Of a DNA stretch of 64,000 nucleotides, positions 11,633 to 55,747 are shown piece after piece. Every line of letters begins with the position of its first letter. The stretch's first letter is position 1. Source of the stretch: Tetradesmus obliquus (lineage: Eukaryota; Chlorophyta; Chlorophyceae; Sphaeropleales; Scenedesmaceae). Location: the NCBI GenBank assembly GCA_030272155.1, contig CP126191.1, forward strand, positions 8,516,501 through 8,580,500, given 5' to 3'. Made by a program: the position numbers and the translations under genes. The notes below the pieces were generated by a model that was not told the origin of the DNA, did not search any database, and was given only the letters and a program-made list of their open reading frames with translations.

Positions 11633-13177
11633 AGCTAAAATGCTGTTATGAGCTGCAGGGTTGATCGAATCGGGATGGAGAGCAGGGAGCTGGGCTGATT
11701 GCAGCGCCTGCTGCAGCTGCGCTTGGGCTGCAGCAGCGCTGCGGGCGGTCGGGATGCAGCGACGTGCGCTGCCGGCTTGTGCTATTGGTGCCGGATGCAG
11801 CGCTGAACTGGGTGCTGCAGCAGTGAAACTACTGCGCTGCGACTGCGGCTGTTGAAGGCTGGAGAATGTGCGTGTGTGTTGTGTGTGTCCGTATTGGTGT
11901 ACGCGCACAGATCGCATGAGGAGCGCACGACTGTCTATGAATCCGGGGTGCTTTGCATTGCGCGTGCCTGCTGCAGCTAGGGGGTGCTCTCTGTGCGGTG
12001 CTGTTGTCTGCTGGTGTGGAAGTTGCGGCAATCAGCGGCGGCCTGTGGGGTGCTGCGGGGTGGCAGGCAGGGAGGTTGATGCAACAGCCCTGTCACCGAG
12101 GGGTGAGTGAGGTGCAGGGCGGGGCAGGCGGAGGGAAGGTGATGTATCACGTGGTGGTGTTCTGAGGTCCCTTTGCACAGGGCAGGCAGAAGAAGAGAAA
12201 GCACAGAACCCCAACTGCATATCATTGCGTGTTGTTGGTTAGGTTGTGGTTACGTGGGGTGGTGTGCGGCGACGTTGCTTCAAGGCGACCGCCGCGGTTG
12301 GCATTTGGCGGTGTTGCCAGCCACCCCGTGTTTAGTTTGCTCGTCATAACGCGTGTCATTTGCGTGCTATGATGGTGCTCTTGTCTGAGAGACTCATGTG
12401 CACTGTTCAGGCTCTTTCGCTGGTTGTTGGCAGCTTTGATGTTCGGCTCTCTCTGTGGTTTTGGCAGCTTTCCCTGTACGGCTTTGTCGTCTGTTGCTAC
12501 AGCGGCGGGCCAATTTTGGCGAGGCAGTGACTGTGTAGTAGGCAGCAAGAGTGTGTTGCTGTGGGTACTATGTGTGCTGCATGTGGCCTTGTGTGTGCGC
12601 GTGTGTGTGTTTGTGTCTCTTTGTGCATATTAGTAAGAGAGCGTCAGCACCACGCAGCGTGCACACATATACAGGCAATGCATGCATGGTTGATCACGCG
12701 AGAGACACCGCAGGCGCGCAGTGCAGCTGCACCAGCCGGCTGCACCAGCTGCCATTTTTTTTCCCTGCACTGTTTGTATTTTGCAATCCAAATGCACGTG
12801 CCCACAGGCTGTGCGCTGCCGTACTGCTGATGTACTGGTAAGGCTGCGTCCTGCTGTGGTGCGTACTTCTTCTCACTTTGTGTTGGCGCCTCTTCTCTTT
12901 GGTACATGTGGTACTGCTTGGTACTGGTACTATGTTTGCATGCCATGCACCTCACTAGGCCCTTGGGCCGCTGATTTGTGTGTAGTGCGAGAGCGAATAG
13001 AAAAAAAGAAAAAAGAACGCCGGGGATCTCCGCCGCTACTTATCTGTGGCCGGGGCTCTGAGCGGAGGTTGGTTTAATGGTCGGTCTGCAGGTTAGGCGC
13101 TTGTTTGCGCCTTGCTGGTGCGATTTTGGGGCAAGGTGCTGTGTTGGCTGGGATGAATCAGTCGTGCATCCAGGTGC

Positions 13178-13286
<109 letters not shown>

Positions 13287-16200
13287 ACAGTTGGTGTGTG
13301 TGTTTGCAGCATCAGGTCGCATGACTGGACTGGTTACGCACTTGCACAGCCAAGTGACGGCCGACCACAACAACAGCAGCAGCAGCGCTACTTTTGCAGG
13401 ACTGGGGTGCAGCTCGTTAGGATATTACGCACGTCGCAAATGGCTTGTCACTGCAACATTGTGCAGTGCCTGCCCTTGCTTCTTTTCTGGCCCTGGCCAC
13501 TACTAGTCACAGCGCCTTGCTGCAGCATGCGCAGCCGTCAGCAGCTTGCAACTTGTGTGTGTGCGTGTGTTCTGCTTGAGAGAGCTCGGGCACTTTTGGC
13601 GAGCCAGCATGGGCTTGCTGCTACTACAGCAGTGTGTGCGCCAGTATGGCGTATACAGTTGCCTGTGGTGCTGGCAGCAGGAACCCTGGCAGCCACAGCT
13701 GATATCCAGCAGCTTGCCTTTTGCTTGGGTGGGAAGTCAGCTGCCGGTTTTGCGCCAGCTGCTCCTTCGCCGCTGACTTTTGGGAATGTGCCGCGCCAAT
13801 TTTACATGCGGGCAACTAGCAGCAGCTCCCACCTGTGCGCACAGCTGACCGTGTATGAACAGGACATATGAAAGGGCTTTGTCGGCGCCAGGGCAGCTTG
13901 TCATGATACTGGGTTTGTCATGGTGTGTCATGGTTTGTCATGGTGTTACACATTCACACGCTTTGACGCAGAGTGACACGGGCGGCAGGCAGGGCGTTTG
14001 GGGCACAGGGTGCAGGCGGAAGGACAGGAAGAAAGGCGGTTTGATCGATTTGTACAATGTGCCCCCCTCTGGATGCCGGCATGGCAAAGGAAAGGCTTGT
14101 TTTGTCACGCATTCTGTCTGTCATACGTACCCGGACCACTGGCATGCAGGGGCTGCTGCCATGTGCTGCTGCTGCGACGCATTGGGCACCTTGCTCGTGC
14201 GCCTGCAGCCGACCGCAGCTGCGCCAGGCAGCTGCGCTGGATCAATTGCAGGTTTGTCGGGCGGCTTTTGGCTCCCAACAGGGCCTCACATTTGTTGTTT
14301 ACTCTGTCCCTCCCTGCATGTAGTGTGCGGCGTTAGGCCTGCTGGGGCAGGCACCACTTGGCATCAACCAGCAGCAGCAGCAACGCGGCCTGCGTCTCTG
14401 CCGGCGTGGCAGCAGCAGGCTCTTGCTGCTGGCGGCGTGCTGCTCTGTGTGTGTGGATTGGCTTCAAACTGTCGGGCGTGACTGTGTGGGGGTGTCGGGG
14501 TCGCGCCGTGCCTCAGGTGCTGCGGCCGTATTGACACTGATAAGTGCTGCGGCCGCACACCTTACGCTTGCTCACTGTCGCTGTTGGCACTGTGGCACTG
14601 TCGCTCACACGGAATCGCCTGAGTATGCCTCCACATGCTGTGCATGCGCCATGCTGTGAGCATAAGTGTGGCCAGGCCCCCTTGCAGCAGCACTGCTGGC
14701 AGGCAGCTGTACCTATACAAACCTGAAGCATCTCTTGATGGAGAGGCAGCACCGGATTCGTGTGGATTAGCTGGCATGCAAGGACGTGGCAGGCAGGCGC
14801 GCGGAATACCGCGCGCGGTCGAGCTTGCGGGATATTCTTCGCCTGGCATCGCAAGAACCAGACAGCCCTCTGGCATTGGCAGCAGCAGTGGATGATGACT
14901 GGCTGGCTGGCCTGCTAGGTTTAGATTGCCCCAAGGATTGTCCTGGTTGTGCCTGGAAGAGTTGTCTGTGCGTGGGCTGCCGTCACTGCATCCGAAGTTG
15001 TAGCATCCAGTTCAGCGCTTGTGTCAGCAGGGTGTGTGCTGTGTACACACATGCACACCATTTCACGGCCTTTCTTCCCAAATGAAAGCCAGGCGCGGGC
15101 CATCCCAGTGGGTGCGCCGCCCTGTGCGATGCAATTTTGGGGTTCTCGGAAGGGTGCAGGTTCAGGGGGTGTGGCGCGGCCTGGTGGTCTGGTGTAGTAT
15201 AACAGCATTTTGTCTGTTTGCGTTGTGGCGGACGTCAATGCATGAAAGGGAGCACTTCTGGGCAGGCAGCTGCCCCAAAGAGGCGCCTGTGTGTGTGCGC
15301 TTGGCTTGGCTGTAGTTGGAACAAAGTTTGCTCGTGTTTTTTTTGTATACCAGGCCACAGTGTAGGTGGTGGGGCGGCTGCATGTGAAGCAGGATGTCTC
15401 TCGAAAAACAGAGGCCCCCGGCGGCAGCATATCCGGGGTTTTGGTTGGCCTCGCGGTCGGTGTTTTGCAGTTGGTGACGAAGTTGTTTGAAGCAGTGGCT
15501 GGTGTACAAACCATAACTTCAAAATGTTATGCTGTCAGTGTACTCATCATCATCATGCTACCATTTAAGCCATAGCGACGTCGCCATCGGCCCGCTGTCA
15601 GTGTACTGTAGGTACAGGACACTGTATGTACCAGAAGCAAATCAAGTGCAAGCATGGCGCTTGCAGGCATCATGGCTCTCATGATGAGAGAAGCAGCATC
15701 AGTGTGACCTACCAGGAGCGTGAGCATCATGCAATTCAGTGACACCTCTGCACACCAAACTGCAGTCTCTCTGTCAACACCACGACCTGCAGGCTTAGCT
15801 GAGCCTTCACGTAGCGGCCAACTGTAGCACTTCAAAGCAAATTTGCATCTGTCACGTGTCACCCATGTGTAGGTGGCCTTTGGCAAGCTCTGTGATCGTG
15901 GCACAATCACTCAGATGACGAAAGTGGCCATGACAGTCCCCAAATCCTGCACTGATCAGTCATGAAAATGTGCTGGTCACGTGCTGATGCTAGCTGCCAG
16001 CATCCACTGCAGTGTACAGTCGCAGCATCCATGCAACTGAGTTGTACACACGGTCTGCCGAAAGCGTCCTGTCACAACACCAGCAGCAACTGCTACTAGC
16101 TTTGAGAGCTACATGCCGCCAGCAGCACTTTGAGAAATACATTCGGCAGTGCATGCCCCCTAAAGCTTCAGGCTCACGGAGCCCCTGAAGGGGCCCCATG

Positions 16201-23397: not shown

Positions 23398-23426
23398 AAC
23401 CCTGCACTACCACTACTAGCTCGGTC

Positions 23427-23470
23427 GAACATGTGAACCTCGATCACGAGTTCAAATTATGAATATGTGG
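23427..23470 (+). repeat. Left inverted-repeat candidate of the KDZ element
   Basis: It begins GAACATGTGAACC and ends GAATATGTGG. About 70 percent of positions match the inverted right-hand copy at 36606-36649. Further CATATGTTC and GAACACATAT motifs follow to about 23510 and may be subterminal repeats. Confidence 0.45.
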
Positions 23471-23677
23471 AACCTTATCATATGTTCAATCTGAACTCAC
23501 GAACACATATCGTGTTCTCGTCTTCCCTGCAGCTGCACTGGGCGTATTGCAGCCTCATTATCAAGCTCTGCTTGGCGAACCCTGCTGTTCTCGGCGCTGC
23601 AACGGGCTCAACAACAGGACTCTGTGATCACAATTTGCTTTCAACTCAGGTGCAGGCGATAAAGAAGCAGCAGTGCC

Positions 23678-26600
23678 ATGGAGGAGGAGCAGCAAGAGCA
23701 GCAAGAGCAGCAGTTTCCCCAGCAGTATGACTCATTCTTTGAACAGTATCAGATGGACCAGGTGGAGCAGTGCTTTGCTGGAGTACACGCTTACCACCAG
23801 CAGCATGCGCAGCCACAGCAGCGGCGGCGAGCAGCATCTGTATCAGGCACAAGGCGCAAGCGTGCTGATGCTGGTGTTCCCAGGGGCCCTAGGAGTGGTA
23901 CAGCCACACAGGGCAGCCAACAGCAGCTGCAGCCATCTGAGGGGGATGATGAGGTTCCACCCATGGCAGCAGAGCAGCAGTCTGCTGACTCTGATGCCCA
24001 GCAGCTGCATCCTCCAACAGAATTCCAGGAGCTAGCACAGAAGCTGCAGGAGGTGGAGCAGCTGCTGCAGTGTGTGACTGCAGATCATGCTGCACAGCGA
24101 GGTGCAGAGGCACCAGCTGCAGAGTGGCGGCGACGTAAGGAGAGCTGGTTCAGGCAGCATCGCGAGGCAGCGCCCGCAAACGCAGCCATCGTGCTGTCAC
24201 AGCAGGCAGCGCCACCTGATGAAAGCACATGCTGCGTGTGCCAAAACACATGTCGCTGTACGATCAGGTGAGCCCCTCATGCTGTTCGGCCATCATCTTG
24301 CACACCATACGCTCCTTCCACAAGCAGCTGCAGTTCTCAATTTGTATGTGCTGCTTCTGCAGGTGCCTCAGCTGCCAGCCTGGCAGTGGTATGCTGCTGT
24401 GCGACGCCTGCGACACGCAACAGCATCAACGAGCCCACATGCACGACAGGCAGCAGTTTGTCAGTGCAGGATACTGGCAGGACCTACCACGTGTCGACAG
24501 CAGTGCTGGTGAGTGGGGTGCATGCAACAGATGATGCGCTCTCAAGTTATGCCCCTGCTCATTCTTGTTGTGTTGTTGCCACTGCAGGGTACGTTGACGT
24601 GAAGCCGAGCAGGTGCACCAAGTGCGGCAACAGTGACTGCTTTGATCCGGTGCCGCAGCAGGTGCAGAACCTCAACTACATCACAATAGGTGGGGCACTC
24701 AACAGCTTGCAGGCTTAACGATTGTGTACTGCACTGCAACAGCAACCCCCATTTCCATTCTTGCCATAGCACATCGATGTGGCGTAGGCGCCTGGCACTG
24801 CATGGCTGTGACTCAGCACAGAGCCTGAGCTGCGCAGCAGTAAACGCAGCCATGCCAGCCACACAGGCTGCGGCTGTATTCCAATAGGCAAATGTGTTCA
24901 GCTTACCACGCCTTTGGGGTGACACTGAGGTGCTGCTTGCTGCCTAGCAGTGGTACCTGCTGCGGTGCTGATTTTGCTGCTGCTGTTGGATTTCATGCTG
25001 CAGAAGGAGTCGTCCTTGCCAAGCGTGCTGCGTTCAAGTGCACTGCTCAGGATTGCTCACAGCTCGTGTGGCAAGCGCCACAGGACTTCATCCGTGCACG
25101 CGCATGGCCGGCGTCAATGAGCAGCAGCCACCTTCAGTAAGCAGCCCTAGCAGATCGCGGTCGTCAGCCATGTGGTAGCTTGGTCAGCCACAAGTAGCCT
25201 GCAGGACATGAACCTGTGTGTCTTCTGAGATTTCAGCACCTGCGCACACCATTGTGATGCCATGTGCAGGCTAGGCATCACACAATATGTCACCGTGTTT
25301 CTGCTGTGCCACAGGACGGTTGTGGATGTCAAGGTGCTGCAGATGTGGGACTCGCAGAAGCTGCGCAACCCCAGCATCTCACTGATGGGGTTCCTGGCGG
25401 GGATCGCAGACGGAGCAGCGGCACAGCGTCCTACGCAGGTGCGGTCAGGGCTTGGCAGACGGCAGCATCCCAGTGCTCAACTGCATGCCCTGATAAGGCT
25501 CACCTATTGATATGTTGCTGACTGCTTGCCGTTCAGCCGCGCCGAGAGATCAACGTGCACGCCTTTCGCTGCGCACACAGCGAGTGGAAGTTCTGCCAGA
25601 TGGACCTGCGCTTTGGTCTGCAGCGGCTGAATGACCTGGAGTGCCCCGCCTGCAGTGCTGGCATGGCTGGGGTGCACATAGACTCCAACATGAAGCTGTT
25701 CACGTGGGAATGTGGCAAGGAGCCATGGCGGCAGCAGCACTACAGCGAGTTCTTTGCAGACAATGCAAGCGTGCAGCTCAGCCTGCAGGCGCTGGACCTG
25801 GCGATGGGCAGCCGGGTGAGGCACATGTGATGCTGTGCGCATACCTTGCAGCATGTATACTGGGGCTGCCTTTTTTTGCAAGCATGCCATGTGTGGTTGA
25901 TGTGCCGCTGATCAGTGCTGCTTAGCTGTCAGGCAGTGTTGAGCTTCCAACTGTATGCTTGCTCTTTGACGCTGCTGCTGCCCATGGTTTCTCTGCCCTG
26001 GGTGATCAGCGAGCGGCCACTGACAACGTCTGCAACGGCTTGTGGGCAGCGGCATCAGATGGCCAGCAGCGGCGTCACGCGCTGCAGGAGATCACAGGGC
26101 GCTGCGTGGGTGAGTTGTGTGGCTTGTGCCGTGCAGTACCAGGGAGGTGGCAGCAGGTGTGCATTCCCGTCGCGGCGCGGCGCGGCGTCACGCGCTGTAG
26201 ACATCATGTATCAGTCGCCTCCCTGCCATCTGTATCATGCAGTTCAACACCCACCTTTTTGCTCTAATGAGATGGCACCTGCTGATGTGCTGCAGCGACG
26301 GATGCGCGGCATGGCGGGCCTATAGCAGCTGCCAACCTGCTAGGCAGCGGCGAGCGATACGGCTACGCCTTTCACTTGGCTGCCTTCAACCTGATGTGCA
26401 GCGATTTGCAGCAGCTGCACATAGACGTTATGTGCAAGTGGGGCCCTTGGAGTGATCGCGCTGTGCAAGCGCTGCGGCAGGAGCAACTGCCAGCTGGCAC
26501 ACCAGAGCAGCAGTCGCGCATGCTCGAGCTCCGCGCTGCGATGCGCGACCGTGGCAGTTGGGCAAACGTGCGCAAGGCATTGTCGCACGCTCATGGCACG

Positions 26601-28961
26601 CTGCACTCACAGGCATGCCAGATGCTATGGCAGCCTGGATGGACCAAGGGCTGTGCCAAGACTCTTGGAGAGGAAGGAGAGCAGTTTTTCTCCTACTTCT
26701 CCAGGTTTTCTGGCACCACCCGCAACCAGAGCTCGGCAGGTGGGTGGAGCACCTGTTGCTCAGCTGCTGGCCTGTGCAAGCCTGCTGGCACAGGGTTGAT
26801 CATGTTTACATGCTGCTTCACATGCTTATGATGTTCCCTGCAGGCTCTTCAGATGCGCTGACAGAGGCAGCTCAGCACTTTGGCCGTCTGAAGAGGGAGA
26901 AGCAAGCTGCGCAACTGGTGCAGCGCTACAAGAGGTTCCGTAAGCTGCTGCCCAAGGCCGAGGCTGACAGGCAGCAGCTGCTGGACAGCCTTGACCAAAC
27001 GCCTGTGCACGAGCGGCCGCAGTTGGTGCAGCAGCTGAAGCGCGAGCTGCAGAGCATGGCAGAAGGTGGGAACCATGTTGCTCCTAGGCGTGGTTGCAGT
27101 GCTGAATGCCGCTTTTGCTAGTGTTGTGTGTGCCTGCAGCATCCTGTCATCTGGCCTCAATGATGCGCTCCTCATTGTGTGTATGCTATAAGAATGACTT
27201 TGTTGTCTGCAACATTTGCAGGCATGGTCAGCGGCAACCGCAGTGACCAGCAGCAGCTGCTGGAGAAGTATGCAGATGCCGTGCGTGCACGAGATGCACA
27301 TGCACTGTCTGCCTACACCAGCACCGCATTGCTTGACTCTGGCATTAGGCGCGGGCTGGCGACTCGCGTGATTGCTGGTGTGTGGGATGCCAACACATAC
27401 GCGCTTCATGATCTGGCAACAAAGCTTGTCACTGCGGCGCAAACCAGCAGGTGCGCACTGTGCCGCCCTCGAGTCAGCAACAATGTTTGGCATGTAGGCG
27501 CGCATGTGTTGCAGGCTTTTAGGAGTTGTTGTTCCAATTGTGGTGCGCAGCAGCAGCCTGTTGTATGTTGGTGCATGCCACTCATGTGCTGCCAATGCTG
27601 CTGTGGTGTTTTGCCGCATGCAGTGTACAAGCGGAGGCAGCCAACCAGATGATTGAGAGAGAGTTTGAGCCAGCTGTGAAAGCCAGCATCTTCCGCATGC
27701 GGAACATGATCGAGAGCGCTTGCTACAACCTGAAGAAGCAGGAGGTCAAGCGCGCTGCAGTTGCAGGTGATCTGGCGAGGTACTTGTGCTGCTGTTGTGG
27801 ACTTGCTTGCGCGGTGGGCAGTTCAAGTGCATTGTATGTTTTGCATTCCTACAGCTGCCTTGCCTGACTTTGTAATGTTTTTGTTCAGGTCATTGCATGC
27901 TGTGTGAACAAACCACCTGCTGCTGATGTTGCTGTTGCTGTGTGTGCACCTCCTTACAGCCCAACCCAAGGAGCGCAAGCGCTGCAACAAGAAGTGCACT
28001 GAGATCACCAAGAACCTGACCAAGCTTGTGACGCAGTACAACCTCCTGGTTGAGCAGTACAACGCCATCCCGCAGCAGCAGCAGTCGCTCCAGCCTGCCA
28101 CAGTGGAGGCTGTCAGGAAGCAGGAGTTCTGCTGGGTCAGCGATTGTGCAGGTGAGGCTTCGGCAGACGGGCTTCGACTGGTGCCTCACCTGATGCTCCG
28201 CCCATGCGCAGTCGATGGTTGTCGTGCACACAGCAGTGCGGCAGCAATCTTTCATAGCAGGGAGGTGTCTTGCCTGCAAAAGCGTTCAGCTGAAACTGGT
28301 GAGCATGCTGCACTAAAGGACCGTGTTGTAGGAGCCAGTCAACTTTGTCACTGTTTATCACTGCCGTACTGCATACCATGTGTATAAACGTAGCTTCTGA
28401 TTATCACAAATACAAACACCACCATGTTCTGCTGCTGCAACTGCAGCCGAGGAGGGTAGCCAGTTGCGGCTGTATGGAGTGGCACGCTCGATTGCGCTGT
28501 GTGAGGCGGACAACGAGGTGCAGCGCATCAGGGAGGAGCTGGAGCTGCTGCCACGGGAGATGACAGCGCACCTGCGGTACCTGCAGCAACTGCTGGCAAA
28601 GCAGGGTGACGTTGAGGCAGCACTACTCGCTGCTCAGCGACTGCCTGCCGATCAGTGTGATGCGGCAGCTAGCAGCCTTGTGGCAGCAGGGTATGGGCAG
28701 CTGGCTGGCCAGGGACGCTACCAGCCTTCAGCTGTCCAGCTGGTTGCTGACAGCCAGGCACTGAGCGGAGCACTCAGCTACTTGCGCATTGCAAAGGTGG
28801 AAGTGCAGCGGCTGCTGGCAAACTCGCGGCAACAGATGCGCAGCTTGAATGTAGAGGGATTGCCAGGTGTTGTTGTAGAACAAGAGAGTGAGGATGTTGA
28901 CAGTGAAGGCAGCGGGTTTGCCCCTGACAGCGATGTTGAGGGCGGTGAAGGTGCAGTGTGA
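23678..28961 (+). CDS. KDZ-family DDE transposase, apparently intact, 13 exons
   Basis: Exons: 23678-24267, 24363-24508, 24588-24689, 25004-25136, 25315-25438, 25537-25815, 25926-26109, 26296-26739, 26844-27065, 27222-27450, 27624-27766, 27960-28151 and 28447-28961. They sum to 1100 aa without a stop. KDZ transposases cut and paste DNA with an RNase-H-fold DDE site (family knowledge). Residues 1-185 are acidic and Q-rich with a coiled-coil-like stretch. A CxC-type cysteine cluster follows (STCCVCQNTC, CLSCQPGSGMLLCDAC, CTKCGNSDCF, FKCTAQDC). The core shows CPACSAGMAGVHIDSNMKLF (first Asp, about 414), ARHGGPIAAANLLGSGERYG, LHIDVMCKWGPW (second Asp, about 563), LHSQACQ and GEEGEQFFSYFSRFSGTTRN (Glu, about 645). 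The C-terminal 400 residues are helical and charged, ending in an acidic tail. The usual Cys before RHG is Ala. No TET/JBP gene, known to accompany some fungal KDZ elements, is present. Confidence 0.88.
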
Positions 28962-29224
28962 TGTTGCAGTGTGATGTTGAAGTGCTTTGCAGCCAGGGTG
29001 AGCTCGGGGATCTGATTCTGCAGTTGCTGTAGTGTTTCCTATGTCTGTTTGCATAGACAGTTGCAGTGGCGGCGACAACGTGACAAGCATGTTATGCACA
29101 CTGTGTCGGCTGCTGCAGCAAAGTTGCCATCTCTTGATTAGAAGACTTGTTGTACTGCAAAGCCATCTTTTAATACCATAAATCAAGGCAGCTGGTCCCA
29201 TACGTGTGGCATATGCACCGGCTT

Positions 29225-29892
29225 GGCAGCAGTAGCGCGATGCTCACAGTCTACAGCAGTGCCTCTGACAGCATTTTACAGCCTGATACCTGCACTGTGC
29301 ACCCTATACACCATCGCCAGTGATCTTGCAAAGTTTCAGGCGATTCTGAGAGGGCACCCCAACCACCTGCATGCGCGCCGGGGCTTCAAAGCATGCCCGT
29401 GGGCGATGCCATACAAGGGAGTGAAAATTTTCACTCCCTCAAATCAGCCAACACCCTTGCATATACACATGTGACGACAATAATAGCTTACCACACTTTG
29501 TAATTGCATTGTGTGCATGCTGCCAACACAGCATTACTGCCACAGACGCTAGCCGCCTGGCAGCAGTAGCGCGATGCTCACAGTCTACAGCAGTGCCTCT
29601 GACAGCAATTTACAGCCTGATACCTGCACTGTGCACCCTATACACCATGGCCAGTGATCTTGCAAAGTTTCAGGCGATTCTGAGAGGACACCCCAACCAT
29701 CTGCATGCGCGCCGGGGCTTCAAAGCATGCCCGTGAGGTATGCCATACAAGGGAGTGAAAAATCACACTCCCTCAAATCAACCAACACCCTTGCATATAC
29801 ATGTGTGACGACAATAATAGCTTGCCACACTTTGTATTTGCATTGTATGCATGCTGCCAACACAGCATTACCGCCGCAGACGCTAGCCGCCT
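29225..29892. repeat. 334-bp tandem duplication
   Basis: Two near-identical head-to-tail units start GGCAGCAGTAGCGCGATGCT at 29225 and 29559; sequence similarity ends near GACGCTAGCCGCCTG at about 29892. Each unit has an internal palindrome: perfect in unit 1 (29417-29438, arms GGGAGTGAAAA and TTTTCACTCCC) and imperfect in unit 2 (29751-29772). Confidence 0.9.
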
Positions 29893-30061
29893 GCAGTATG
29901 CACCCTGCCCTGATGGCATATCCATGCAGTGTGTCACTGTCATGATGCAAAATTCGCCAGCCCAAACAAGCAGCGCACACAAACAACATCTTGGCCTCCG
30001 TCTGCTGCTCAGGAAGTGGGTGGCTGGCGCTCGACGGCACGCATCACATGGCAGGGTTGGG

Positions 30062-30172
30062 TGCAGTGTGCTGACATGAGACCACACCGTATAGTGTACG
30101 TATGCAGCGGTGGTGCCATCACCTCAGTACGGTCCCTCAACTTGACTTGTGGTCTCATGTCAGCACACTGCA
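30062..30172. repeat. Perfect 25-bp inverted repeat with 61-bp spacer
   Basis: The left arm, TGCAGTGTGCTGACATGAGA plus CCACA at 30062-30086, is exactly complementary to the right arm at 30148-30172. The whole unit is 111 bp. It could be a foldback/MITE-like insertion or a small-RNA hairpin. No flanking duplication is obvious. Confidence 0.9.
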
Positions 30173-31445
30173 TGATGGGGTCCTAGCTGGAGCGTGGCCA
30201 GATATCAGGCCTGGGGCATCCTAGCTGCAGATGCATTGCTCACCCTGACAACATGCATTCAACGCAGCAGTGCTGCTCCGAGCAGCATCTGGCAGATTGC
30301 TGTCAGCTGTGGCGACCTAGTGAGTGATTACCAGTGCCAGGGCAGCCACAATTTAGATGATAGCAACCAGCTAGTGAGTGTGCGCAGTGCAGGCGGTTCC
30401 GGGGATGAGATAGGGGTGCTCAGCGTGAAGTGAACGCAGCGCAAAGAAGTACCACTACAGTTACCAAAACGAGATCCACTTGCAGGTAACACAATTTGCA
30501 GAAACACACTGCCATTGCAATCATGCTGCGGCAACGTTGCCGCATGTGTTGGTGCGAATGTTGAGGGATCTGGTGTTGCACTACTACTTCCTGGCAGTAG
30601 CACTACTGCTGGCTGCAGGACGCTGTTTGTGACTGTCGCAATGCACAGCTCACAACAGCTCTGCTCTTTCATCATCATGTTACCCATCAATAGCTCTGCT
30701 CTTCGAACGTTGTGATGTTGGGTACGTACCACAGCTGCGCTGATGTATCAGTGAACACCAGCAAGCGCAGTGTTGGCGCAACCGCACTGTTGTTGCTGTA
30801 GAGCTGTGTTTAAGCAGCCACATGTTGCGCGCATGGCGGCGATGGCCACAGCAGGATCGCACTTCTCCGCACATCTCTGGGCAAGCACGCACATCATGTG
30901 TTGTTATTGCCGTTGCCTGGCTGCCAGAAGCAACCTCGCTAGTTACAGCGTTCTGGCAACATCAGGATCATTATCAACGCTAGAGCCAGAAGGGAGTCAG
31001 AAGACAGCCATAAGATAGCTGTAAGAGTGTTACAGTAAAACCTTAGCCGTAATCTACAGCAACAAAAGCATTGATGCTCAGCCAGGCACCCACATTGTCC
31101 CACATTACAGCCTCCGACTAGTCACCCTCTAAGCTATGCTGTCCCCCGGACACCACGTGCAGCTGCGCTAGACTTCCTGCAGGGATGGGCCGGGCAGCAG
31201 CGCTGCGTGCACAAGCTCCAAGGCAAGCCAAGCCGCCAACCCTGGCCGCAACAACGCTGCGCAAGTTCGCACCAGCCTGCTGCTGCGGCTGCTGCTGCTC
31301 AACTGCGCCAGGCACACTGCCTGCAGCAGCCCCAGGGCCAGCCAAGGCGCCAGCCCTGGCGAGGCAGCAGAACCACGCATGGCTGCACCGCACCGCACTG
31401 CTGCCGCTGCTGCTGCTAGCCCATAGCGCCAGTTGTGCTGCCTGC

Positions 31446-32407
31446 TCACGCCTGCTCACCAACTGGCAGCTCTGCAGTCAGGTCGTCCAAGAACTTGCCC
31501 TCCAGCCAGTTATGCACAAAGGTGAACTGTCCGCTTACAACTACCTGGCAGGCCAAGGCATACAGCTTCCCCGCGCCTTGACCCTGGCTTACTAACGCCA
31601 CCACCCCCGGGCCCTGATTGTACTTCTCAGCTATGCGCCGCTGGTAAATGCCCTGCGCAATACGGAGTGTCTCCTGATAGGTGGTGCTCATGTCTTGAAA
31701 AGGCACAGCATCAAACCCGCGGGCCGCCAATTGGTTCTGCATGATGGTGATATGCACAGGGATGGGCGCAGCTGCCTGCTGCTGCCCAATGACGCCGCCT
31801 GCGTCGCCGTTGTCTGTGCTCAAGCTGAAAGCGCCAGCAGTGGCAGCCGCTGCAGCAGCGCTGCTCATGTCTGGAGCGCCCTGCTGCTGCTGCTGCTGCC
31901 CTGTCCCGCCAGGCGGGCCGCCTGCGCCACCGCCAGAGCTAAACGTGCCACCAGCATCAGCCGCGGCAGTAGGGCCGCGCATATCTGCAGCGCTCTGCTG
32001 CTGCTGCCCCGTTGCGCCAGTTGTGCCCCCTGCCGCGACACCAAAGCTGAACACACCACCGGCAGCGGCCGCTGTAGCGGCACCGTGCAAACCTGCACTG
32101 TCCTGCTGCTGCTGCTGCTGCTGCGCAATAGCGCCAGGCGCGGCACCGTGCAAACCTGCACTGTCCTGCTGCTGCTGCTGCTGCTGCGCAATCCCGCCAG
32201 GCGCGCCGCCGGCAGCAACACCAAAGCCAGCCAAGCCGCCAGCCATGGCCGCTGCGGCTGCAGCGCTGCGCACCTCCCCACCAGCCTGCTGCTGCTGCTG
32301 CTGCTGCTGCCCAAGGGCGCCAGGCGCGCCGCCGGCAGCAACACCAAAGCCAGCAAAGCCGCCAGCCATGGCCGCTGCTGCTGCAGCGCTGCGCGCATCT
32401 GCACCAG

Positions 32408-32439
<32 letters not shown>

Positions 32440-33634
32440 GCAATCCCGCCAGGCGCGCCGCCGGCAGCAACACCAAAGCCAGCCAAGCCGCCAGCCATGG
32501 CCGCTGCGGCTGCAGCGCTGCGCACCTCCCCACCAGCCTGCTGCTGCTGCTGCTGCTGCCCAAGGGCGCCAGGCGCGCCGCCGGCAGCAACACCAAAGCC
32601 AGCAAAGCCGCCAGCCATGGCCGCTGCTGCTGCAGCGCTGCGCGCATCTGCACCAGCCTGCTGCTGCTGCTGCTGCTGCTGCGCAATCCCGCCAGGCGCG
32701 CCGCCGGCAGCAACACCAAAGCCAGCCAAGCCGCCAGCCATGGCCGCTGCGGCTGCAGCGCTGCGCGCATCCGCACCAGCCTGCTGCTGCTGCTGCTGCG
32801 CAATCCCGCCAGGCGCGCCGCCGGCAGCAACACCAAAGCCAGCAAAGCCGCCAGCCATGGCCGCTGCTGCTGCAGCGCTGCGCGCATCTGCACCAGCCTG
32901 CTGCTGCTGCTGCTGCTGCTGCGCAATCCCGCCAGGCGCGCCGCCGGCAGCAACACCAAAGCCAGCCAAGCCGCCAGCCATGGCCGCTGCGGCTGCAGCG
33001 CTGCGCGCATCCGCACCAGCCTGCTGCTGCTGCTGCTGCTGCTGCTGCGCAATCCCGCCAGGCGCGCCGCCGGCAGCAACACCAAAGCCAGCCAAGCCGC
33101 CAGCCATGGCCGCTGCGGCTGCAGCGCTGCGCGCATCCGCACCAGCCTGCTGCTGCTGCTGCTGCGCAATCCCGCCAGGCGCGCCGCCGGCAGCAACACC
33201 AAAGCCAGCAAAGCCGCCAGCCATGGCCGCTGCTGCTGCAGCGCTGCGCGCATCTGCACCAGCCTGCTGCTGCTGCTGCTGCTGCTGCGCAATCCCGCCA
33301 GGCGCGCCGCCGGCAGCAACACCAAAGCCAGCCAAGCCGCCAGCCATGGCCGCTGCGGCTGCAGCGCTGCGCGCATCCGCACCAGCCTGCTGCTGCTGCT
33401 GCTGCTGCTGCTGCGCAATCCCGCCAGGCGCGCCGCCGGCAGCAACACCAAAGCCAGCAAAGCCGCCAGCCATGGCCGCTGCTGCTGCAGCGCTGCGCGC
33501 ATCTGCACCAGCCTGCTGCTGCTGCTGCTGCTGCTGCGCAATCCCGCCAGGCGCGCCGCCGGCAGCAACACCAAAGCCAGCCAAGCCGCCAGCCATGGCC
33601 GCTGCGGCTGCAGCGCTGCGCGCATCCGCACCAG

Positions 33635-33666
<32 letters not shown>

Positions 33667-36408
33667 GCAATCCCGCCAGGCGCGCCGCCGGCAGCAACAC
33701 CAAAGCCAGCAAAGCCGCCAGCCATGGCCGCTGCTGCTGCAGCGCTGCGCACATCCGCACCAGCCTGCTGCTGCTGCTGCTGCTGCTGCGCAATCCCGCC
33801 AGGCGCGCCGCCGGCAGCAACACCAAAGCCAGCAAAGCCGCCAGCCATGGCCGCTGCTGCTGCAGCGCTGCGCGCATCTGCACCAGCCTGCTGCTGCTGC
33901 TGCTGCTGCTGCGCAATCCCGCCAGGCGCGCCGCCGGCAGCAACACCAAAGCCAGCCAAGCCGCCAGCCATGGCGGCTGCGGCTGCAGTGCTGCGCACAT
34001 CCGCACCAGCCTGCTGCTGCTGCTGCTGCTGCTGCGCAATCCCGCCAGGCGCGCCGCCGGCAGCAACACCAAAGCCAGCCAAGCCGCCAGCCATGGCCGC
34101 TGCGGCTGCAGCGCTGCGCACATCCGCACCAGCCTGCTGCTGCTGCTGCTGCTGCTGCGCAATCCCGCCAGGCGCGCCGCCGGCAGCAACACCAAAGCCA
34201 GCAAAGCCGCCAGCCATGGCCGCTGCTGCTGCAGCGCTGCGCGCATCTGCACCAGCCTGCTGCTGCTGCTGCTGCTGCCCAAGGGCGCCAGGCGCGCCGC
34301 CTGCAGCAGCCTGGTTGTTCTCCTGGTAGTACAAAACACAGCAAGGGCGCAACGTCAGCTATGAAACGCCTTGCAAGCATGCCTAAACAGTCTGAGCAAA
34401 GACCGGCTATGGTACCTTGGCAGTGTAGCATAGCAGTGGCTGACTTCACAGAAAAACATATGGCACAACATTGCCCTGACTTGCATGCATATCAACTGCT
34501 GCGCACCTGCACATGTTGGTAGATGGCCGTGGAAGCGGCAATTGCTATGCCCTGCAGGGCGTTGTGCAGGATGGGAGGACCAGTCTGGTTGTTTTGCAGG
34601 ACCTCGGTCACTGGGCCACCAGTCCCAGCGAAGTACACAGCAATACTGCGATCCTTGTTGATCCCGGGCAGCTGTAGGTCAGAGATGTACGGGTCCGTGC
34701 TGCCAAAGTTGATCGTTGTCAGACCTTGCTTCTTCTTGGTGACTGGCAGCCTAGTCTGGCAGACACCTGCTCCCATCAGGACCCACTCACAGCCAGAGGC
34801 CTCTGCCAGCTCCGCCACCTGCACCACCAGGTCAGATGACAACGAGAAGTCAACAGGCCATGGCACATCAGCAGCAGGAACCTGCACTGGTGTCACACAC
34901 GGGGGCCCTAAGCAACAAACTGTACAGCTATGCCGCAATGCGCATTGGGAGTTCTTGTGCAGCTGAACGGCTGCAATGCTGGTGCCACTGTTTCAGCTGT
35001 TGTGCACCCTGACGTGACCCCGCATTATGTAGATACTTATCATCAAGCAAGCAAATGCAAGCAGCAGCATCTAGCCACAAATGCACCTTTTTCATGATCT
35101 CTTCTGCGCCCTTCTGTATGTTGCTGTTGGCGCAGCGGTTCTGCATGGCTGGCTGGTCAGAGCTGCTCCCGGTCCATGGCTCAAGTGGCCCCCGCACACG
35201 CGCACGCTTGGCAGCATTGTTGTACTCCACCTTCGCGTTGCACGTCCCGCATTGCCCAAGCCTGAACAACAGCATGACAAGCAAATCAATCTGATGTACA
35301 CAACAAGTGCATAGCTGCGCAAAGAGTGGGAATGGAAGCGCTTCACAAGACTGCCAAGGTAAGCGCGTGACCTGCACGATTGGAAGCACTTGCACACGAT
35401 GCGCACACTGAAGTTTGGGCACTGTAGTGGTAGGTTTGCACGCTGCTGGGCTCCCAACACGCAACACGAATGTGCACGCCTAGTGTAGCAATCGAACGCA
35501 GTTAGCAGCGCTGCCAAAGATCTAAACCCGCAGCACGCACTTGAAGTGCAGCAGCGCTCCACACTTGCCAGGGCACGGCCTCTGCCCTGTGATGTTCTCC
35601 ATGGAAGCATCTGTCATTTTGCGCTTGTTGCTCTGGTCAGCCGCCTCGCCAGTGTCACCGCTGTGACCTGCATTGCAGCAGCACACACATGTGTAACTGC
35701 GCTGCTACAAGCGCCATGATGCGCGGTGGGTACATGCACTACACAATGATGCTAGGGCTGGTCGTGTGTCGCTGCGAATATTCCGGCAGTCACACCCGCG
35801 CCTGCCAAGCGCTTTGAAACTAGTACTCAGCCTTCCACCACCCACACTCTCACCTGCTGCTGCTGCTGCTGCTGCCGCTGCTGACCCTTGCGCTCCTTCT
35901 GCAAGTCCTTCAGCTGACACACCTGCTGCTGCTGCTGCTGCTGCTGCGGTGCGCCTATGGTTCAGCACTTCCTCCACAGCAGCGCACAGCTCTTGAGACG
36001 TGAATGCAGTGGTCAGCTCCCAAAGAGGACCAAACAGGTCATTGAAGACAGCTGCTTTGGCATCAGGTGCCTTGTACAGCTTCTCTGCGATGCGTGCACT
36101 GATGGCCTGCACACAACAGCAGGTGAGCGTAGGGCACATCACACGTGTGTAGGCTAGTGTATAGGCTAGATCAGGATGCACACCTCTTCCTGCAAGTCTT
36201 GAATGATTGCATCCACCCCTGCCAAGCTCTCACGGGCCTCCACAAAGCAGTTGAGCAGTTTAGTGGTTGAAACCTCCTTGCCAGCAACCCACACTTTGCT
36301 GGGCCAACGTAATCGGTTTGTATTCATCTGTTCTTTGATGAGTGCATGCCATTGTTTTTGATTAGGCAAGCCAGGATACGGCAGCTGGATTGGCGTAGCT
36401 GCTGCCAT
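31446..36408 (-). CDS. Unrecognised 1343-aa protein with Cys4 cluster and FG/poly-Q tandem repeats
   Basis: Exons on the minus strand: 36408-36184, 36106-35854, 35667-35541, 35261-35087, 34881-34507 and 34322-31446; phases close. I do not recognise the family. Residues 1-385 are non-repetitive: MAAATPIQLPYPGLPNQKQW at the start, a helical segment ARIAEKLYKAPDAKAAVFND, two Ala runs, a possible zinc site CPGKC...CGTC (C-x3-C-x10-C-x2-C, about residues 190-207) and a globular-looking part with GCEWVLMGAGVCQTRLP and RSIAVYFAGTGGPVTEVL. Then 17 regular units of 33 residues plus 6-10 Gln follow, each containing GGFAGFGVAAGGAPGGIA or a close variant, and about three worn units. A 100-residue unique tail includes MQNQLAARGFDAVPFQDM. 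GFG in each unit recalls nucleoporin FG repeats, but no homology is claimed. The last exon may instead end at a GTGAGC donor at about 31462. Its position and mirror-image start suggest that it belongs to the KDZ element. Confidence 0.75.
31890..34318 (-). repeat. Coding minisatellite, 117-129 bp units
   Basis: There are about 20 head-to-tail units, 17 of them near-identical from about 32212 to 34318. Length differs only by the number of CAG (Gln) codons, 6 to 10. Two unit types, with GGFAGFG or GGLAGFG, often alternate, which points to higher-order duplication. The long open frames on other strands and frames here are shadows. Confidence 0.95.
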
Positions 36409-36673
36409 AGGAACTCAGCAGTTCAACACATATACATTTGCATATCAATCGCAGTTACTGTTGTGCTTTTGTGCTTGTCGAGTGCTGAACAGCCATGGCG
36501 AAACAAACCAGCTTTCATATTCAAATCGCAGCTCAGCCGCAAAACAACACACCGGCGAACATGTGATTGCTTGTCACATGTCTGTAATGAACATATGACA
36601 TCACATCACATATTCAAATTATGAGTATGTGACTTATGTTCATATGTTCAACTGGGCCTGGGCTGAACCCTGC
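36409..36673 (+). promoter_or_regulatory. Right terminal region of the KDZ element
   Basis: This holds the upstream region of the minus-strand partner gene, the right inverted-repeat candidate (36606-36649, TCACATATTCAAATTATGAG at its start) and the right 8-bp duplication AACCCTGC at 36666-36673. It is AT-rich with repeated CATATG/GAACATATG words like those at the left end. Confidence 0.45.
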
Positions 36674-37319: not shown

Positions 37320-49543
<12,224 letters not shown>

Positions 49544-51424: not shown

Positions 51425-54400
51425 ATGCAGGTGGCTGCTGGAGCAGCATCAGGCATGTCCTGCAGAATGCAGTGCAACAGGCAGATAATGAGCAGTTGTA
51501 ATGGCTTGCACATGCCATGCCGCCCCATGCGCCCAGCAGTTCGGCATTTCGGAGTTGCTCTCCGACAGCTGCCATTGTCGGAGCCACTTCGTGCAGTGCG
51601 TGCAGACCAGGCTACAGAGGCTCTTGACTCCGATGTAGTACAGGTGGGCTACGCTTGCGGGCCGCATGCAGCAGCAGGGTTCGCAGCATCTGTATCAGCA
51701 GCAACAGCATCCCGGGTGCAGCAGAGCTTCTCGGGGCACATGATGCTCATGAACATTTAGAAGCAATATGTACTCTTGTTTTTCAACTATCTTCGTCTGC
51801 AGGTCATCTCTCAGATCACAGGGGCAGTGGATGATTCCATGGCAAAGACGCTGGCGACATCAGCAGAGGCAGCGCAGCAGTTTGAGGAGGCTGCAGACAG
51901 TGAGCTGCGCAGCAAAGTTGTTGGAGCTGTGCACAAGCTGCAGAAAGGGCTGCTGGAGAGGGAGACTGAGGTGAGCAGCTGCTTGCAGCACGGCTGCAGC
52001 CCTGGGGCACACGGCCGCAGGCCTTATGCTCACACGTATGGCACTCGTTTCTAGAAAGGCATCAAGGCAGGGCATGTAAGCATGGCAAGGATCCTGGCAG
52101 CTCGCATGGCAGGCCGCTCAGCTGCTCTGTGTCTCTTCCACCTTCCATGTGCTCCCTTGCGTGCCGTAACCCTGCCTCCGCCACTGTCCTGCAAGCAGCA
52201 TCAGCTCATCCGATGCCTCCTCTCCCCACCACCCCTTCTCACCCATCATCTCTCAGCTATGTCTGCTCAACACCTGTTCCACGTGCCGGCCTCCACCACT
52301 GGTGGCTGCAGGTGCGCCTCATGCTGCTGGCAGCGCTGTGCGGCGAGCACCTGCTGCTGCTGGGCCCCCCAGGCACAGCCAAGTCTGAGCTGGCGAGGCG
52401 CCTCAGCGGCCTGGCACACGGCGCTTACTTTGAGCGTCTGCTGACGCGCTTTTCAGTGCCTGAGGAGCTCTTCGGGCCGCTGTCCATGCAAGGTGGGCTT
52501 GCGCTATGAGCGCTGAGCGCTTCGTGCACATGCGGCTGTTGGGAAAGTAGTTTGTGTAGTGCAACACTGCCCGCCTGGTGCACACTGCGCGCGACGTCTT
52601 ACACTTTCGGGATGCATGCGACTGTGGTGCCAGTTTCCGCTGTGCAGCCGTCGCTGTTTGCGGACTGGTACTATTGATTGCGAGGATGGAACCCCCTCTG
52701 CCTCCAATGCTACATCTGCATTTGTAAACGGTATTTTTGTGCGTAGAACTTTCACCGCCCTTAGTTGCAGCTAGTGTCTTCACATTGTATATGCCTGCTT
52801 TTGCCGCACTTGTGTGCTGCTCTCAGGCCTGGAAAACGACCAGTACGTCCGCAAGACAGACGGCTACCTGCCAACAGCAGAAGTGGCCTTTGTCGATGAG
52901 ATCTTCAAGGCAAACAGCGCCATCCTGAATGCGCTGCTCACGCTGCTGAACGAGCGGCTGTTTGACAACGGGAACCAGCGGCTGCCAGTGCCGCTGCTGT
53001 GCTTGATCGGCGCCAGCAATGAGCTGCCAGAGAGCGAAGAGCTGGATGCGCTGTATGACCGCTTCCTCATCAGGCGCACAGTTGCACAGGTGAGCGCTCC
53101 CGCTTCAACATCTATGCCCTATGCCGCACGGCAGTGGGGTACACTTCAACCGCCTTTTGTTTGCTCGAGGACCTGCATGCAATGAATGATGCTTTACTCG
53201 AGCTTTGCTGCACAGACTTTGAGCCTGGCCGCATATTGCAGCTGTCGTTGATCTTGTTTACTGATGCCGAGCCTGACACCCTGTCAAAACTGCTCTGCTG
53301 CGCAATGACGGTCCACCCCGCCAGGTCACCAACGCACAAATCGGCAAGCTCGCGCGCCTGGCAGCTGGCCGCCCCGCAGACCCCAGCAGCAGCAGCAGCA
53401 GCAACGGCAACGGCAATGGCAGCAGCGAGGGCGGCCCCGCGCTCGACATGGACGACTTCAGGCACACCGCGGACCGCGCGTATGCTGCTGTTGATGTGCC
53501 AGACAGCGTCGTGGACATCCTTGCTGAGCTGCGCTGCTACCTGCAGGACAAGTGCGAGCCGCCCATGTACGTCTCGGATCGGCGCTTCATGAAGGCGGTG
53601 CAGATGCTGCAGGTGCGTTGTCATTGTGAATCAGACGGGGCGCCGTTCAGCACAAGCGGCTTTGTTGTGGCGCGCCTGCATCGTACTATAGCACACGCAT
53701 ATCACCTGTGTGTGACATGGTTTGTGGTGCACATCCCAGATACTAAGAATGCACATGGCTAGGGGGCGCATGCATTGGCTGGGCTGTTTCAGCTTGCGAA
53801 GCTGGCGATCGTGTTTACATATGTTGCTGCAGCTCCTCTCTGTCTGTTGCAAACGCCGCGTTTGCAGCGATTTGCAACGCTGGATGCCGACCACCCAACT
53901 GCGATCACCCAACTTGTGTGCTGCTGAGGTCGCAAGACGTGTGGCATATCCTCTTAACGGTCGTCTGGAATAACACTGAAGGTGCCTCTGCAACATGTTC
54001 TGTGCCGCGCTCCTAGGTTGCGGCGCACGCTGATGGCCGCGAGGCTGTGAATGAGTACGACTGTCTGCTGCTGGAGCACGTGTTTGGCAACAGGCCAGAC
54101 GACTGCCACAAGGTCCGCGGGCAAGTGCTGGAGATCATCGCAAGCGACCCGGGGCTGCAGCAGACGGAGCTGGTCTTCCTGGGGCTGTTCGGGCGGTGAG
54201 AAGGCTCACAGTTTGGTTCAATACAGTTTGTTGGTTTTGTAGGCAGTGTGTGGCCCTGCAGCAGACAGGGATGTCATTCCTGGGTCTGGGAGTGACGGTG
54301 CCTGGCTGCTGCTTCCATGTGTCAGGGTTCAAATAATCTTAGTTTGATGGTGTCCTGTGGGCAGCTCACGGTTGCGATTGTAGGCAGCACATGGCTCCTG

Positions 54401-55747
54401 CGGCAGAAGGAGCTGGTTGCCCTTTGGCTGTTTGCGCGGCGAGGCCTGCTCAGCTGCTGCTGCTTTGGGTCGCAATGCAGTTCAGTGCACTTGTTGAGGT
54501 CGAAGCTACATCATTGTTCACGCAAGGCACCTGCCAGGACTTTGTGCCTCCAGTGAGACACAACTCACCCAAGCGTGTAGTAATCGTTTCATCCGAGTAG
54601 GATACAGTCTTTCAGCGCCAGCTTCAGTCCTGCTTACATGTTGTGAAATGAAAACTCACTTTCTACAACTTCCCCCCGTGGGACTCAGCAGCTGTGCCTG
54701 CCGCATGCCGCCTCCGTGTGCAGGGCCTGCCGTGTGCTGGAGCAGTCCCCTGACAGTGCCGAGGCAGCAGATGCACTGGCAGAGTGCGGCACTCTGGTGG
54801 AGCTGCTGCAGGGCCGCCAGGCAGCACTGGCAGCCACGCTGGAGGGGGCATTCCCTGAGCTGCGTGCAACAGTGTGGCAGAGCGAGGCCAGCGTGCAGGC
54901 CGCGGTGCAGGTGAGGCAGCGCAGGAAGATTGGCAGCAGCAGACGCTGGTTGTGAAGCAGAGCAGCACTGTCGTTCTGCGATGTTTCAGCAGCACATTGG
55001 GGTTTGGGTGTGGCAATGCTCAGACAGGCTGCTTGGCAGGTATTGGAGCAAGCAATGCTGTTGCTGGTTGGGTAGTTTAGTGGTAGGGTTGGGTAGTTTA
55101 GTGGTAGGGTTGGGTAGTTTAGTGGTAGAACACCGGCATGGTATGCTGGAGATCCAGGTTCGAATCCTGGTCCAACCGCCCGTGGCTGGGCCTAAAAAGC
55201 TTGCGACTATGGCCCGTGGCTGGGGATAAAAAGCAACTGGAATTGACGGACTTGCGCGGGTGGTTTCGATCGCCCAAACAACGAAGGAAAGACTGGGTAC
55301 AATTACTACTACCCCCCATGAGCGGATTAGCGGCTCGCTGGGCTAGTGCCTGGGGGCGGGTTCAGTCCCGAAAGTGTATTGTATTGTATTGTATTGTATT
55401 GTATTGTATTGTATTGCTGTGGCGGCTTGGCAATCGTGAAGGTACACCTGGCTGGCGAGCGGCAGTGCGTGGGGACATGCGTGCATGCATGCGTGGTGCA
55501 TTGCCGGTTCAGTGATGCAACCGCTGTGCTGTGCCTCACACCACTGGTGCTGCTGCTGCTGCTGCTGCTGCTGCTGCAGGCGCTGACGCCGCAGCTCACC
55601 GAGAACAAGCGCAAGACCGAGGAGCTGCTGCGCGAGGCATTCACGCTGCAGCAGTGCCTGGCGCAGCGCAGCGCTGGCGGCGTGCTGGAGAAGCTGCTGC
55701 CCAAGCGCTACAAGCAGTACCAGAAGGGCATCAGCAGCAAGGTCTAG
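51425..55747 (+). CDS. RavA/MoxR-family AAA+ ATPase, probably organelle-targeted
   Basis: Eight exons: 51425-51643, 51803-51970, 52312-52492, 52827-53089, 53325-53612, 54017-54195, 54724-54910 and 55580-55747. They give 550 aa, close to bacterial RavA (about 500) plus a leader. MoxR-family AAA+ proteins act as chaperone-like ATPases that remodel or insert cofactors into protein complexes (family knowledge); the client here is unknown. The leader MQVAAGAASGMSCRMQCNRQ and following Arg/Ser-rich residues fit a transit peptide. The ATPase core shows Walker A LLGPPGTAKSEL, the MoxR-typical FSVPEELFGPLS, Walker B VAFVDEIFKANSAILNALL, LLNERLFDNG, sensor-1 LIGASNELP and arginine-finger region YDRFLIRR. 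A Ser/Asn/Gly linker and a helical C-terminal part follow, ending KRYKQYQKGISSKV. The ATG at 51425 is preferred because upstream residues in frame lack another ATG. Confidence 0.92.
54603..54669 (+). repeat. Second copy of the 8010-8083 dispersed repeat
   Basis: It begins TACAGTCTTTCAGCGCCAG and continues CTTCAGTCCTGCTTAC and GAAAACTC. It lies in RavA intron 6, while the other copy lies downstream of the Hsp70 stop. Confidence 0.65.
55066..55416 (+). mobile_element. tRNA-derived SINE in RavA intron 7
   Basis: The tRNA-like head (55108-55178) has RNA polymerase III box A TAGTTTAGTGG and box B GGTTCGAATCC. The first 21 bp of the head, GGTTGGGTAGTTTAGTGGTA plus G, are repeated at 55066, 55087 and 55108. 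A tRNA-unrelated body follows, with a short internal duplication GCCCGTGGCTGGG...TAAAAAGC. It ends in a (TATTG)n tail at about 55375-55416. The head, body and simple-repeat tail are SINE anatomy. No flanking duplication was identified. Confidence 0.75.
55108..55178 (+). tRNA. tRNA-like head of the SINE, anticodon position reads GGT
   Basis: A cloverleaf can be drawn. The acceptor GGTTGGG pairs with TCCAACC, the D stem is GTTT/GAAC, and the anticodon stem CCGGC/GCTGG carries loop ATGGTAT. The variable loop is 4 bases and the T arm is CCAGG-TTCGAAT-CCTGG. GGT would be threonine, but nuclear tRNA-Thr normally carries AGT, so this is more likely a diverged SINE head than a working tRNA gene. Confidence 0.45.

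Follow-up and report, generated by a model that had tools for sequence, protein, structure and literature searches.

The described systems that come closest to the locus analyzed here are the KDZ (Kyakuja-Dileera-Zisupton) elements, for which published accounts, in the portions accessible to us, already include accessory genes. Giant transposons of Ectocarpus, KDZ elements among them, carry extra transcribed genes, mostly without known function, and a 31.7-kb KDZ element has moved in Chlamydomonas (PMC12477816); KDZ elements of fungi carry TET/JBP cargo (PMC12730594). Two Kyakuja families make 7-bp duplications and have CA..TG ends and no terminal inverted repeats (TIRs), a Dileera element has an 8-bp duplication (PMC12730594), and KDZ1 of Cryptococcus combines an 8-bp duplication with 241-bp TIRs (PMC12810828). 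Outside this group, a 3-bp target duplication is given for a CACTA element, and CACTA elements have family-specific subterminal motifs and a TnpA protein that diverges faster than TnpD, according to the sections of that report available to us (PMC2613891). Since accessory genes on KDZ elements have been described, what is new at our locus is a partner gene encoding an FG/poly-Q repeat protein and the persistence of that gene across two families; in the accessible parts of the literature, no description of this convergent partner was found.

The window, a stretch of 64,000 nucleotides of Tetradesmus obliquus (C1:8516501-8580500), was compared with one genome, the 104.66-Mb, 17-contig assembly. 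The element body spans 13,255 bp (23411..36665), with termini CACTACTAGCTCGG and GGGCCTGGGCTG, and is bracketed by a target-site duplication, the 8-mer AACCCTGC, present identically at 23398..23405 on the left and 36666..36673 on the right; the limits set by the earlier note, 23398 and 36673, are the outermost bases of this duplication. Five extra bp (ACTAC, 23406-23410) separate the left duplication from the canonical left terminus at 23411. The right end at 36665 is fixed independently, because a second copy, on contig C6, aligns to that base and then diverges. The outer ends, CACTAC...GGGCTG, give the 5'-CA..TG-3' termini, and a by-eye comparison for terminal inverted repeats finds the two ends alike only imperfectly. 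An empty site, that is, an allele without the element, was looked for in this assembly as the earlier note had proposed, and none was found.

Within these limits a complete KDZ transposase gene and an unrelated 1343-aa gene face each other, as first described with respect to coordinates, gene count and orientation. Both models were built by hand from GT-AG sites and frame continuity, not from transcripts. The transposase gene (23678..28961, plus strand; 13 exons, 1072 aa) is confirmed by Pfam matches to PF18758 (KDZ; 55.2 bits against a cut-off of 26.6, E=1e-14) and PF18804 (CxC3; 46.6 bits against 26.6, E=3e-12). The partner gene (31446..36408, minus strand), which has homologues elsewhere in the genome, has six exons: 36408-36184, 36106-35854, 35667-35541, 35261-35087, 34881-34507 and 34322-31446. 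Measured from the termini at 23411 (left) and 36665 (right), the start codons, which had been placed about 280 and 260 bp from the element ends, are 267 and 257 bp away, respectively. Between the two 3' ends are a 334-bp unit in two tandem copies (29224..29893; one copy in the C6 relative, as judged from overlapping BLAST matches) and a perfect 25-bp inverted repeat with a 61-nt loop (30062..30172), and the repeats at 29224-30172 are possibly shared transcript ends. The same convergent-gene spacer holds a 24-bp palindrome at 29416-29439. Around the element are host genes at 41790-42674, 52775-53182 and 55108-55178 (SNF2-related exons, one above and one below the cut-off, a MoxR-type AAA protein and a tRNA), and a long simple repeat at 13062-13868 is readable as a VC-repeat frame.

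The genome contains further copies of this unit, which the earlier note had proposed looking for, though not all of them intact. The second copy of the window's own family, family A (C6 6028334-6042138), is 94-98% identical to the window's element across the KDZ gene, the spacer and the partner, with the similarity ending at window position 36665; the copy is rearranged, and because its left 1.2 kb is inverted and its left terminus is absent, it shows no duplication. Both of its genes are interrupted by stop codons, and exon 1 of its KDZ gene has a 4-bp gap. Six sister elements (family B) lie in the same genome, with a partner protein 34-40% identical to that of the window. Those on C16, C8, C15 and C4 have both ends in common in four pairwise comparisons among the four copies, CACTACTGGCTCGG at one end and GGGCCTGGGCTG at the other, and are flanked by the duplications TGGCCATG, TGTCGTTG, CGGGCTTG and AGTTGATC. 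Matching 8-bp duplications are therefore present in all five elements for which both flanks were read, the window's and these four. The broken family-A copy on C6 stands tail to tail with a family-B element, about 1.2 kb apart (C6:6028334-6059090). The original claim of a mobile-type 13-kb unit is borne out, with its two convergent genes at 23411-36665 between the AACCCTGC duplications, and we take the unit to be almost certainly a two-gene KDZ DNA transposon that has spread as one piece, roughly 13 kb long, and makes 8-bp target duplications.

How regularly the two genes travel together was judged from the termini. When as many as two mismatches were allowed, 15 places in the genome showed the left terminus (exact in 7, with one mismatch in 8; control, 3) and 45 the right terminus (8 exact, 3 with one mismatch and 34 with two; control, 7). 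The right ends used were the eight exact ones and a single one-mismatch end, C6:6043324, whose 417-bp surroundings are 99% identical to the sister family. Paired termini define seven elements (the window, C4, two on C6, C8, C15 and C16), both ends being exact in six and the right end carrying one mismatch in the C6:6043324 element. KDZ and partner matches, in convergent orientation, are present in every one of the seven. Two exact right ends remain unpaired, one in the C6 family-A copy and one a solo end on C10; the latter is a 155-bp family-B right end (C10:4741316-4741470), 99% identical, and its contig has no left end even when two mismatches are allowed. From the partner side, 22 of 22 matches (six of them the window itself) fall in eight loci, namely the window, the C6 copy and the six sister elements, as do 45 of the 46 matches from a second partner search; partner homology reaches E <= 0.001 at each of the eight. 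The remaining match, at C1:11024700 (E 0.072, with three stops), has the look of a chance hit. The earlier note had raised the question of whether the partner always lies convergent to a KDZ transposase: at all eight loci it does, and none was detected alone in this one genome. Moreover, a search for copies ending at 29-31 kb, between the two genes, found none with a recognised right end there. Given seven of seven two-ended elements and a KDZ gene at all eight homologue loci, the partner is part of the element and older than the split of the two families, so that within one genome the idea of an element-encoded repeat protein is supported.

KDZ genes do occur without the partner, as the array on C3 and the cluster on C16 lack both a right end and a detected partner. 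Among the matches listed to the KDZ domain (at least 38), eight are at partner loci, nine in the two groupings just named, on C3 and C16, and 21 at other loci, where no partner was detected. Left termini with a single mismatch accompany KDZ sequence in both places, five of them in the C3 array and three in the C16 cluster, and in this group no right end was found within two mismatches or by DNA similarity. Reading 6 kb of C3 showed an apparent KDZ C-terminus, placed by eye, with no recognised right end and no partner after it, and the copies on this contig look cut short and amplified in tandem. KDZ fragments lie at ten places with regular spacing in C3:7389000-7500000, together with the five left termini, a pattern like that of a roughly 24-kb unit repeated five times in tandem. 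The KDZ gene cluster at C16:1361000-1489000, with its three left termini and no A- or B-type right terminus, has KDZ sequence that looks fuller than that of the C3 copies.

The length of the window's partner, 1343 aa, is inflated because its FG/poly-Q tandem array (32166..34308, minus strand) has expanded to 17.4 copies of a 123-bp unit (TRF), with far fewer in the C6 copy; in translation, the motif AGG[FL]AGFG is counted 17 times for the window's partner and twice for that copy. Each unit of about 41 residues has one FG amid poly-Q and poly-A runs, and the protein has 20 FG dipeptides, 17 of them GFG. The sister family's array is built from a different unit, with FIFG once and FTFG twice; in both families, FG and poly-Q sequence is followed by a conserved C-terminal domain (31446..31790, minus strand; 37-38% identity between families). 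Also kept between families are an N-terminal piece, four cysteines, the motif LxPWxGSSxDQP and a conserved domain in exon 5 with an AGTGGP motif (34507..34881, minus strand; 35% identity). The cysteines, in a zinc-ribbon-like stretch spanning exons 3-4 (35087..35667, minus strand; PF10005 at E 0.0056, below the cut-off), read CPGKC...CGTC in family A and, on our reading of the splices, CPGC...CKTEGC in family B. Searched as a construct without the array and in pieces, the partner had no Pfam domain above cut-off, with zinc-ribbon matches under it, and no fold was recognised for its two conserved domains. Exon order and intron phases (0,1,2,0,0) are by eye identical in both families, an agreement that is partly circular because frame continuity was one of the reading criteria.

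The two genes differ in their rates of change, as identity between families is 58-60% for KDZ versus 34-40% for the partner. For the latter, pN is 0.448 and pS 0.555 over 226 codons, so that between-family constraint appears modest by this measure. Within family A, the dN/dS of 0.8-0.9 against the C6 copy is uninformative, the C6 genes carrying stops and a 4-bp gap. The terminal 240 bp of the elements are A+T-richer (GC 0.42-0.48) than the elements themselves (0.57-0.59). In the window, the left subterminal region (23411..23650) has a GC of 0.48 versus 0.59 for the element and contains TATGTTCA-type motifs, and the right one (36426..36665) has a GC of 0.42 and TATGTTCA motifs. The commonest 8-mer of the terminal 240 bp is TATGTTCA in family A (four times; shuffle limit, 3) and ATAATCGA in family B (three times; limit, 2), the limits being 95% of 300 first-order Markov shuffles, and neither was seen in the element interior. 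The enrichment is slight: at k=7 neither family exceeds the limit, and at k=6 only family A does. The outermost ends are common to both families and the subterminal 8-mers are family-specific.

The explanation we favor, by a small measure and by analogy, is a two-gene KDZ element whose partner acts like TnpA beside TnpD. Its main ground is that the outer ends are shared but the subterminal motifs are not, with the partner diverging faster than the transposase. The transposase would recognise and cut the conserved outermost ends, and the zinc-ribbon-like part and conserved domains of the partner would attach it to the repeats of the subterminal regions, which are less conserved; the FG/poly-Q low-complexity array would gather partner and transposase molecules, which together would hold both element ends. 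Of the roles proposed in the earlier note (DNA binding, nuclear transport and complex assembly), the first is slightly favored by the zinc-ribbon-like cysteines and by the subterminal motifs peculiar to each family, and to an accessory DNA-binding role, taken by itself, we would give a little short of an even chance. More broadly, the sequence evidence suggests that the partner may aid the element's movement or survival. It is doubtful that the boldest version holds, namely that an obligate, fast-evolving, array-expanding FG/poly-Q zinc-ribbon partner condenses transposase and element ends in a two-component KDZ system. If true, this would be a low-complexity accessory protein of a cut-and-paste transposon, and we know of no described condensate-type protein of that kind.

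The most serious alternative is that the partner is a passenger or an element-survival factor, for example one acting against silencing, and stands outside the transposition machinery. Two points weigh against this: no enzyme domain, whether TET/JBP, methyltransferase, ParB or another, reaches the Pfam cut-off in the partner, and the partner is present in all seven two-ended elements across a deep split; on the other side, anti-silencing has been proposed for TET/JBP on fungal KDZ elements, giant KDZ, EnSpm and Sola-1 elements of Ectocarpus carry extra transcribed genes mostly without known function, and the KDZ group without a right end also lacks a detected partner. On balance we regard it as possible, if rather unlikely. 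Quite improbable is a nuclear-pore or nuclear-transport adaptor that carries transposase or excised DNA by way of the FG array. The 20 FG of the window protein and the FIFG and FTFG of the sister family would suit such an adaptor, but FG occurs just once in each unit of about 41 residues, set among poly-Q and poly-A stretches; the C6 copy has far fewer repeats; no nucleoporin family is matched in Pfam once the array is left out of the construct; and the FG, lying in low-complexity sequence rich in Q, A and G, may do no more than promote self-association in a generic way. That the unit is not mobile, being a host gene between chance repeats or a segmental duplication, is scarcely tenable even though the only near-identical family-A copy is rearranged and lacks its left terminus and the C3 KDZ fragments are regularly spaced as in tandem duplication, since five loci with common ends but different flanks and different 8-bp duplications already contradict it.

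The consequence is practical: with the partner found in seven of seven two-ended elements, from two families that have diverged, and with target duplications beside them, what might have been cargo becomes a directly testable candidate for a second component. With KDZ elements at large, including the giant KDZ of Ectocarpus and KDZ1, our element has in common the KDZ and CxC domains, the 8-bp duplication, CA..TG ends, a size above 10 kb and accessory genes; it differs in its convergent FG/poly-Q partner, which two diverged families have retained and which the available parts of those accounts do not describe. A second gene is likewise shared with the TET/JBP-carrying elements of fungi, whereas our partner has no dioxygenase domain in Pfam. 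Harbinger elements also have two genes tail to tail, as described in the portions accessible to us, but with a different transposase. The second Harbinger protein is of the Myb type, and it has no counterpart among the partner's Pfam matches. From CACTA/EnSpm, again as partially sourced, our element differs in its KDZ transposase, in an 8-bp rather than a 3-bp duplication and in its separate convergent genes, and no relatedness to TnpA is claimed. The likeness to TnpD and TnpA is one of design: a conserved transposase, a faster-evolving second protein and subterminal motifs specific to each family.
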